Shown here piece after piece: positions 47,835-50,833 of a stretch of DNA of 55,735 bases (position 1 is its first letter; each line of letters starts with the position of its first letter). The notes below the pieces were generated by a model. It worked only from the letters and a program-made list of their open reading frames with translations, was not told the DNA's origin and made no database searches. The DNA lies in assembly GCA_022773305.1 (NCBI GenBank), contig JALFAW010000088.1, forward strand, positions 1-55,735, in the 5' to 3' direction. Position numbers and translations under genes: made by a program. This DNA comes from Spirochaetia bacterium. GTDB lineage: Bacteria > Spirochaetota > Spirochaetia > Treponematales > Treponemataceae.

Positions 47835-49187
47835 TCATACTGAAAATTTCATGTCATTTACTTTGGAAGAATCAAAATTTTCCCAGAACGGCATTTGTGA
47901 ATCATCGCAGTCTTTGCCGTTCGGATCACCTGTTTTGATGAAATTGCACAAATAATTGCACATTTTTCTGGAAACATCATAATGCTTTCCTGTGAACGGA
48001 CGCCAGCATTTTGCAAGAGTTTCAAACCAGAACCACAAATCTACTGAATGGAATTTTCCAGGATTGTCCCAGCCTGGAATATCAACATCAAAATGATAAA
48101 AATAATTTTTGTCTTTGATGCCATGTTTTTCCATGTACTGCTGGTACATAATGTTTGCCTGTTTGATTGGATTTTCAGTTTTTCCGTCAGGTGTCTGGAA
48201 ATTAAATTCGTCTGAAGTGTAGCCGAACATCATAGGGACTGATTTAAAATCATTTTTTTCTACTGCTGAAAAGAAATCTGAATGTATGAATTTGTTGTCA
48301 AGAACTGGTGTCCATGTTTGAATTGATTTTGCATGTCCGCCGTATTCATCCCATTTTTTGCGAAGTTCTGCTGTAGTGAATTTTCTCATTTCTGCAAGAT
48401 TTTTTGCCCCGCAAAATTCAAAAAACTGTTTCCCCATTTCTTCTGCTGTGCTTAAAGGCTTTGGATTCATTACGGTGTTTCCCGGCATGTAAAACATTCC
48501 GCTGTGGCAGACTGCACGATTGAAAAGTCCGTCTGAACCTTTAAGAATCTGGGTTAGAACGCTTGCTCCGCCCGCAGATTGACCACCGATTGTGATATTC
48601 TGGTTATCACCACCGAATGCTTCGATATTATCTTTGACCCACTGAATTGCCATTCTCTGGTCAAGAAGTCCGAAATTTGTCGGAGCTTCCGGGTTTTCTT
48701 TTGTAATTTCAGGGTGGCTCATAAATCCAAACATATTCAAACGGTAAGCTATTGTTACCACAACAATGCCGCGTCTTGCAATTCTTTCTCCGTCAAATTC
48801 CATTTCGGCTGTAAAACCTGTCTGAAATCCTCCGCCAAAAATCCAAACGTAAACAGGAAGTTTTTGTGCATCTTTTTTTTCAAGGTCAGCTGGTGTCCAA
48901 ACATTTAAATAAAGACAATCTTCGCTCATCGGGATGTCTTTATCTACCGACCACTCGCGGCAATATAAATCATCTGGATTGTAATAAGGTGTTGGTTGTA
49001 CCGAAATGGGACCAAACTTATATGCCTGGAGCGCACCTTCCCACTTTTCTACTGGAACAGGTGCGTGAAACCGCAAATTGCCAACTGGAGGCTTTGCAAA
49101 AGGAATGCCTTTGAATGAAGTGATTCTTGGATCTGCGGCTGGCAAACCTTCAATTTTTCCAAGTTTTGTTTCGACTGTTCTAATCAT
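47835..49187 (-). CDS. Type B carboxylesterase
   Basis: ITSFKGIPFAKPPVGNLRF, EDCLYLNVWTP, ITIGGQSAGGASVLTQI (GxSxG). Confidence 0.93.
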   Translation of the reverse strand: MIRTVETKLGKIEGLPAADPRITSFKGIPFAKPPVGNLRFHAPVPVEKWEGALQAYKFGPISVQPTPYYNPDDLYCREWSVDKDIPMSEDCLYLNVWTPADLEKKDAQKLPVYVWIFGGGFQTGFTAEMEFDGERIARRGIVVVTIAYRLNMFGFMSHPEITKENPEAPTNFGLLDQRMAIQWVKDNIEAFGGDNQNITIGGQSAGGASVLTQILKGSDGLFNRAVCHSGMFYMPGNTVMNPKPLSTAEEMGKQFFEFCGAKNLAEMRKFTTAELRKKWDEYGGHAKSIQTWTPVLDNKFIHSDFFSAVEKNDFKSVPMMFGYTSDEFNFQTPDGKTENPIKQANIMYQQYMEKHGIKDKNYFYHFDVDIPGWDNPGKFHSVDLWFWFETLAKCWRPFTGKHYDVSRKMCNYLCNFIKTGDPNGKDCDDSQMPFWENFDSSKVNDMKFSV

Positions 49188-49200
49188 TTTTCCTCCCTTT

Positions 49201-49433
49201 AAAAGTCAAGAAGATTGTTTCAACAATCGACTGACTTTTTTACGCTGTTCCGTAATGTAATGAGGAACAGCAGTTTAATGTAAGATAAAGCCGCGCTATT
49301 TTAGCGGTTTTATCACACTCCTATTAAAACACCGCGTTAGCGGCGAGCCAGGATGGCGAGTATCCAAGTTTATGAAGTGCAGAGCACGAAATAAACTTGG
49401 TGATAAAAATTACATGGACGTAATTTTTATCAC
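49201..49433. repeat. Array of six consecutive hairpins in one intergenic region
   Basis: Stems at 49201-49239, 49244-49271, 49284-49314, 49332-49343, 49364-49400, 49400-49433 (see finding). Confidence 0.8.
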
Positions 49434-49438
49434 ACCTC

Positions 49439-50833
49439 CTATAATTTTATGGATTTGAGCTGTCCTGCTCCATATCCTTTAAATGTAAGATAAATTGCAT
49501 TAATTCCGTCTGGAATTGAAACCTGAGCGGAATTTTCTTCCCAAAAGTTTGAATATATAACTTTGATTTTTCCAAGAATTTCTCCATCCCATTTTGTGCG
49601 AACTTCGAACTCTCCATCAAAATAACCGCGATTTACTATTGTAAGTTTTTTGATGTTTTTGCAATCAAAATATTTAAATCCTATGGTTGTATTATTTTGA
49701 ATATTCACAATGTAGCCGGTTTCCTGGTCACCATCGCGTCCATCCTGTGTGATTCTTGCAAACTTTTCTCCGCCAACATATTTACTTGGCATTTGAGTGT
49801 TAAAAATGTTGCAGGCAATGCAGGCTGGATATTCACCAACAGCACGTAAAGGTCCGCCGTTTAATCCACAGGAAGTAATTTCTACCTGGTCTATAGTTCC
49901 GTCTTCTGCAATTTTGATTTTTTCGGCACAGCCCTGACGACTGTACCAGGTTCCGTTTGTATGACGATGATAGAAAATGTAATACTCTCCGTTGATTTTT
50001 TCAAATCCGCCATGATTATTTGCCCCATAAGCAGCTGGCATATCTGAAGGTTTGTAAGATGAAATTCCAACATCACAATTACTCACAATCACACCGCGGT
50101 ATTGAAAATCTTTGACAGGATTTTTACTTGTGGCATAACAAAGTTCGTGCATTGCGCTGGAAGAATATACAAAATAATAAGTATCACCAACTTTTCTGAT
50201 AGAAGGAGCTTCGAAAAATTCGTGGTTTTCAAAAGATGTATTTTTACCGTAACAGTCTCCTGGAACTATGACATTGTAGTCTTCTTCGATGGTAAGCATA
50301 TCTGCTCCTAAAACAGTTGCCATCGCTCCAAGTCTGTCTTGCATTTGATGTCCACAAAATCCTGTGTAAAGGTAAGTTTTATTTCCTTCTGTGAGAACTG
50401 CAGGATCAAACTGAGGCATATTTCCCTGTCTTTCTCCAAGTTTTGTTCCGTCTTTGTAATGAACGTAACCGTAAAATTCATATTTTCCAGCCGGAGTGTC
50501 GCAAACAGCAACTGAAACAAAACTTGCTTTATCTAAAACATAATAAAGATAATATCTTCCGTCAGGACCTTGCGTTACATCAGGAGCATACAAAACCATT
50601 CTGCCGTCTTGAGCAGGATCCTGGTCTTTTTTATAGATTACCCCTTCATATTTCCAGTCAGTTAAATCTGTAACATTCGCTGAATAACAGACATAGTCTC
50701 CTAGACAAAAAACTGCACCATTAAACATATCGTGTGAACCAAAAACATAAACTCTGTCTCCAAAAACATGAGGTTCACCATCAGGTACATATTCCCAAAA
50801 TGGCATATATGGATTAAAACACTGTTTTTTCAT
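49439..50833 (-). CDS. Glycoside hydrolase family 43-type (arabinofuranosidase/xylosidase-like)
   Basis: NPYMPFWEYVPDGEPHVFGDRVYVFGSHDMF, VLYAPDVTQGPDGRYYLYYV, HHGGFEKINGEYYIFYHRHT-like five-bladed propeller pattern. Confidence 0.85.
   Translation of the reverse strand: MKKQCFNPYMPFWEYVPDGEPHVFGDRVYVFGSHDMFNGAVFCLGDYVCYSANVTDLTDWKYEGVIYKKDQDPAQDGRMVLYAPDVTQGPDGRYYLYYVLDKASFVSVAVCDTPAGKYEFYGYVHYKDGTKLGERQGNMPQFDPAVLTEGNKTYLYTGFCGHQMQDRLGAMATVLGADMLTIEEDYNVIVPGDCYGKNTSFENHEFFEAPSIRKVGDTYYFVYSSSAMHELCYATSKNPVKDFQYRGVIVSNCDVGISSYKPSDMPAAYGANNHGGFEKINGEYYIFYHRHTNGTWYSRQGCAEKIKIAEDGTIDQVEITSCGLNGGPLRAVGEYPACIACNIFNTQMPSKYVGGEKFARITQDGRDGDQETGYIVNIQNNTTIGFKYFDCKNIKKLTIVNRGYFDGEFEVRTKWDGEILGKIKVIYSNFWEENSAQVSIPDGINAIYLTFKGYGAGQLKSIKL

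Follow-up and report, generated by a model that had tools for sequence, protein, structure and literature searches.

REPs and BIMEs are small palindromic intergenic repeats that occur in many copies and form composite arrays (PMC2817692, PMC8266576). REPs, whose associated enzyme is TnpA-REP (RAYT), have a GT[AG]G foot, and they share with IS200/IS605 elements a set of rules: hairpins, a short asymmetric target, a fixed orientation and no inverted repeats (PMC6006769). In IS200/IS605 elements and their non-autonomous derivatives, the hairpins are subterminal and insertion takes place beside a fixed tetranucleotide. Bacterial MITEs are also small, non-autonomous and multi-copy, those of the DDE type being defined by terminal inverted repeats and a target duplication. 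Last, Rfam contains two families of clan CL00124, TD-1 (RF03155) and TD-2 (RF03162), which are typed as a cis-regulatory RNA and an sRNA, respectively.

The locus that we describe lies in a window of 55,735 nucleotides (the whole stretch of DNA that was analysed) from a Spirochaetia bacterium of the Treponemataceae, in the spacer between a GH43 gene and a carboxylesterase gene. The Pfam matches of these neighbours, PF04616 and PF00135, agree with what the sequence-only reading had proposed, and since both genes are on the minus strand, the spacer is read 5' to 3' on that strand. Each of the six hairpins of positions 49201–49433 is present exactly where that reading had placed it, and there is a seventh, small one (GCC-AGGAT-GGC, at about 49344–49360). 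On the coding (minus) strand, the 263-nt region folds to -87 kcal/mol, compared to -53 ± 4.4 kcal/mol for shuffled sequences (z -7.7), and the opposite strand folds equally well (z -8.3); none of 200 shuffles is as good. We argue that a non-autonomous mobile hairpin element of the TD-1/TD-2 group, which targets and regenerates Shine–Dalgarno (SD) sequences, very probably makes up the spacer, with two copies joined together. This reading is built on the dispersal of the element, its precise GGAG borders, the existence of filled and empty orthologous sites, its position ahead of start codons and its conserved hairpins.

Table. Features of the GH43–esterase spacer and its neighbours (positions in the window)
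Feature	Position	Strand	Remarks
Whole composite element	49193..49439	-	Left GGAG to right GGAG; fills the spacer; 77 matches in own genome; absent from congener G006
Module A (TD-2-like), GGAGGTGTGATAAAAATTAC...CGCTAACGCGGTGTTTTAATAGGAG	49318..49439	-	Recurs alone, with GGAG at both borders, in the source and other species
Module B (TD-1-like), GGAGTGTGATAAAACCGC...TTGACTTTTAAAGGGAG	49193..49321	-	Recurs alone and in tandem
Left GGAG	49436..49439	-	Left border of copies; GGAG present here in empty sites of relatives; modelled as SD core before insertion
GGAG common to modules A and B	49318..49321	-	Tandem junctions
Right GGAG	49193..49196	-	Putative SD of the esterase, from module B; 5 nt before the ATG at 49187
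Hairpin A1	49400..49433	-	Perfect 14-bp stem; most conserved part of module A; covariation
Hairpin A2	49364..49400	-	Covariation analysis
Small hairpin A3, GCC-ATCCT-GGC	49344..49360	-	Covaries
Hairpin A4, CCGC-TAAC-GCGG then GTGTTTTAAT	49332..49343	-	Terminator-like; covariation analysis
Hairpin B1	49284..49314	-	Left end of module B
Hairpin B2	49244..49271	-	Module B
Hairpin B3	49201..49239	-	Right end of module B, immediately ahead of the putative replacement SD
Carboxylesterase gene (COesterase)	47835..49187	-	PF00135, E 2e-96
GH43 gene	49439..50833	-	PF04616, E 6e-22; stop codon abuts the element

The comparison of 40 loci of the same genome, together with their flanks, distinguishes two modules. 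Module A, GGAGGTGTGATAAAAATTAC..., is about 120 nt long and ends in CCGCTAACGCGGxGTTTTTAAAGGAG, and module B, GGAGTGTAAGATAAAACCGC..., is about 130 nt long and ends in ...CTTGACTTTTTATGGGAG. The main finding, which the sequence-only reading had missed, is that every module starts and finishes at a Shine–Dalgarno GGAG; in the tandems (A-B, B-B and A-A-A), neighbouring modules have one GGAG per junction in common. The recurring TATCACAC(C)TCCTAT of the spacer is the reverse complement of ATAGGAG(G)TGTGATA, the left end common to both modules, whose GGAG cores are the left and the common GGAG of the table. By inspection the two ends of the element differ and there are no terminal inverted repeats. 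The left and right contexts show no similarity outside GGAG (permutation P 0.64 for A and 0.31 for TD), so that there is no target duplication longer than GGAG. In these two respects the element departs from MITEs, which it resembles in size, in copy number and in being non-autonomous.

One or more nested hairpins are often present in module B, at a constant position. One such nested unit, CAGGGGTTAATACAACCCCTG...GGTCGTATT, is seen within module B at L025, L026, L029, L030, L032 and L036; it also occurs outside module B, at L050.

A search of the 3.1-Mb draft genome of the source organism with the spacer returns 77 BLAST matches, several of which are full length at 85–94% identity and many of which are partial, at about 40 loci; this assembly is fragmented and some of its contigs end inside the repeats. 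Relatives of the element are found in 32 of 79 sampled congeneric genomes, where the borders of module A fall repeatedly at positions 1 and 123 of the query. The carriers include Treponema porcinum and MAGs of gut or rumen treponemes. The phage and plasmid collections gave no match; one viral contig, a phage contig of IMG/VR, has a module-A copy (L307:4215-4330) at an SD that follows what is probably the major capsid gene. The many dispersed copies are what is expected of a non-autonomous mobile element, and they support the suggestion, made from the sequence, that hairpin modules accumulate in tandem: the spacer joins one module A to one module B, and each is dispersed many times in the genome.

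The other suggestion of the sequence-only reading, that the esterase/GH43 transcript carries a structured regulatory RNA, is not supported, since the same modules precede dozens of unrelated genes and the spacer of a congener lacks them. An RNA specific to this operon, or a stack of terminators, would fit the strong folding and the two terminator-like sites of the coding strand, of which one ends module A and the other follows hairpin A1, but the copies ahead of other genes at about 40 loci and the orthologous spacer that has no element make it extremely improbable. We reject the operon-specific regulatory RNA on the grounds of dispersal and empty sites; a plain terminator is rejected too, as the two terminator-like sites leave the copies unexplained.

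In the congener G006, the GH43–esterase locus reads CATAAAATTTTAATATCAGGAGTGTAAGATATGATTAGAACAG, with 18 unaligned nucleotides in place of the 252 of the window, between flanks that are 94% and 86% identical, while the near relative G181 has the element at this locus. At L036, the empty site of G006 is ..GAATGGAG/CGAATTATG (the slash marks the junction) and the filled site is ..GAATGGAG/TGTAAG...TTTTTAGTGGAG/TGATTTATG. Searches with joined flanks gave further filled/empty pairs with G006 at L014, L020, L006 and L004, and at L016 and L032 the SD that bears the element is occupied in the relative by another one. The same is seen in a T. denticola-like genus: L233 is AAATAAGGAG/AAACAAAATG when empty and AAATAAGGAG/ATACGATAAAC...TTTATAGGAG/AAGAAAATG when filled, L230 is TTAGGAG/CCGATATGGG when empty and TAAGGAG/ATGTGATAAAC...TCTGGGAG/TAGATATGGG when filled, and L235 and L225 are two more such pairs. 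At the rpsB–tsf locus L231 (tsf being identified from its start sequence, MDIKASDVKQLRDKTGAG), four genomes have an empty site, a single hairpin, a solo right end and a full element, always with ...GGAG/AAATTT. In clean pairs, the stretch that follows the right GGAG is closely similar to the one that follows GGAG in the empty site; L227 and L228 are not clean, the empty allele having a variant GGAG or none. The pairs and the four states of the tsf locus indicate that insertion takes place directly 3' of GGAG. This polymorphism of presence and absence, with precise borders, is typical of mobile elements. At single sites, we read the difference as a probable gain rather than a loss, from pairs that are not polarised.

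The esterase spacer of G006 contains GGAGTGTAAGATATG, which resembles the left end of module B and could be the footprint of the loss of an element. A few ribosome-binding sites of the form GGAG(G)TGTAAGATAAAATG or GGAG(G)T(G/A)TAAGATAAAA immediately before a start codon, which carry the first bases of module B, are found at L011, L014, L182 and the esterase site of G006; these may be footprints, the alternative being chance.

In rumen-type treponemes, the right GGAG is 4–14 nt before a start codon (mode 6 nt) in about 73 of about 77 terminal copies, a set obtained by taking 12 tandem-internal copies out of 89 by hand and which includes a small number of orthologues from closely related genomes, so that its members are not fully independent. 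A start codon was counted if it opened at least 50 codons or a frame running off the fetched sequence. By comparison, 40 of all 204 GGAGs of the window (20%) precede a start codon in this way. Among the exceptions, an ATG still follows closely at L023, L047 and L151, the SD of L047 being changed, and L012 is the only copy upstream of a separate SD. Elsewhere in the Treponemataceae, all 34 TD-1 copies of the GGAG class, drawn from 40 TD-1 loci of other genomes, have a start codon 2–10 nt past the SD core of the right end.

It could be argued that insertion is random and that copies persist only where an SD stays intact. Indeed, degenerate forms of the left GGAG (AAAAGAG, ATGAG) are frequent and the right GGAG is nearly always intact, which means that selection does act on the right copy. 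However, this view predicts many harmless copies in intergenic DNA at a distance from genes, and only about 4 of the 77 terminal copies depart from the standard arrangement of SD and start codon; moreover, the GGAG is already at the insertion point of empty sites. We consider survival bias to be an improbable explanation.

A second TD-1-like class ends in AAGGAA and is mostly not before start codons (L042-L046, L208-L210, L214). In the T. denticola-like genome G213, L268-L274 are minimal elements that consist of just one left-end hairpin; they are at SDs and most are flanked by GGAG on both sides.

On the minus strand, cmscan matches the Rfam family TD-1 over module B; the score of 39.8 bits (E 3e-5) falls short of the 64.5 bits set as gathering cut-off, and this match spans positions 1–120 of the model, with the hairpins in the full-length order. 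On the plus strand, TD-2 matches module A with 27.8 bits, below its cut-off of 48.7. The copy in the window is thus under both gathering scores, in which it differs from the families, but TD-1 matches above the cut-off exist elsewhere in its own genome (68.2 bits for a different element). The order of the hairpins and the TTTTTAtaGGA right end are the same, and so is the left end, on the opposite strand. Of 245 Treponemataceae genomes, 96 have TD-1, which occurs in 12 of the 20 genera sampled and is strongest in genus g15; its TD-1 scores are our reason for calling this genus T. denticola-like. Where TD-1 copies are strong, the TD-2 matches lie on the other strand of the TD-1 element, over its left half, so that the two "RNA families" are largely one DNA element. 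What Rfam types as a cis-regulatory RNA and an sRNA behaves here as two strand readings of one GGAG-bounded mobile element.

A true cis-regulatory RNA, as Rfam has it for TD-1, could control translation or transcription and have spread as a useful leader. The copies are always in sense orientation directly ahead of genes, they have terminator-like ends, and their hairpins covary: 18 of 31 pairs are kept through changes on both sides among 20 module-A copies, the pairs being taken from a predicted consensus, so that this supports selection on pairing rather than proving it. Against this, the downstream genes look unrelated (for example, tsf and thioredoxin, read from start sequences, the esterase, phage virion genes) and show no stable tie to a single function or regulon such as an operon-specific riboswitch or attenuator would have, the allele states at one gene, tsf, vary widely, and there is no ligand-like conserved core. 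Nor does the SD appear masked: its mean unpaired probability is 0.48, compared to 0.23 with shuffled elements, and it is higher in 14 of 18 copies, which suggests that the predicted folds leave the SD relatively free. A regulatory RNA is unlikely, although the element may have a side effect on downstream expression.

Regarding the enzyme that moves the element, the Y1 transposases of IS200/IS605 or REP type, acting in trans, are candidates. The hairpins, the short asymmetric target, the fixed orientation and the absence of inverted repeats fit their chemistry (PMC6006769), and the source genome has Y1 genes. However, no PF01797 match was found in 12 of 14 TD-1-rich genomes, most of which are single-contig, and the repeats on either side of the resident RAYT-like gene are of another kind. 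This refutes Y1/RAYT as a general resident mobiliser, and we give spread by Y1 in trans a low probability; it is possible that a Y1 enzyme has since been lost or was supplied horizontally. No element motifs are present near the IS200 copies of the source genome. The RAYT-like Y1 gene (L138:1031-1777, plus strand, contig C227) is flanked by AGGGACAGACCT-type repeats, which form arrays elsewhere (for example, at L127) and may be its own REPs. Another observation is that a 1186-aa Eco57I/PglX-like methylase ORF (L139:389-3949, minus strand, contig C209) has an in-frame Y1 transposase-like domain (aa 632-719) inside the methylase region.

The element differs from REPs and BIMEs in having direct GGAG repeats at SDs instead of a GT[AG]G foot, and from IS200/IS605 elements in that its target is GGAG at SDs, the same tetranucleotide is at both ends and no transposase-bearing form was found. 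A scan for the end patterns of the element in the 5 kb downstream, where ORFs were not annotated, revealed no such long form in a T. denticola-like genome. We also rejected a longer autonomous version, because the left-end-only copies are single-hairpin elements, most of which have their own right GGAG.

Taken as a mobile element that targets SDs, the hairpin element would insert on the coding strand directly 3' of the SD core GGAG, and its own end, ...TTTTTAt-GGAG, would supply a new SD. After insertion, the old SD would be at the left end of the element and the new one would have the original spacing to the start codon; the downstream gene, here the carboxylesterase, would thereby retain a usable ribosome-binding site. 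Head-to-tail arrays of modules would arise when one inserts at the terminal GGAG of another. We infer that transposition is ongoing and that the esterase is translated from the SD of the element. The hairpins and the short asymmetric target suggest a single-strand mechanism. We tentatively raise the possibility of a distinct class of mobile element, which targets the SD, brings a replacement SD and is moved by machinery other than a resident Y1 transposase, possibly one that works on single-stranded DNA or via an RNA copy. The question raised is which enzyme recognises GGAG in treponemes that have no HUH-Y1 transposases.

If this is true, two Rfam "RNA" families are recast as one mobile DNA element which, since translation is preserved at each insertion, is able to invade essential operons. 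Insertion at the SD and its replacement would be a safe-harbour strategy that gives access to the operons of essential genes (rpsB–tsf, thioredoxin). It would account for the structured 5' leaders of many treponeme genes, and would be a source of new leaders, terminators and variation in ribosome-binding sites.
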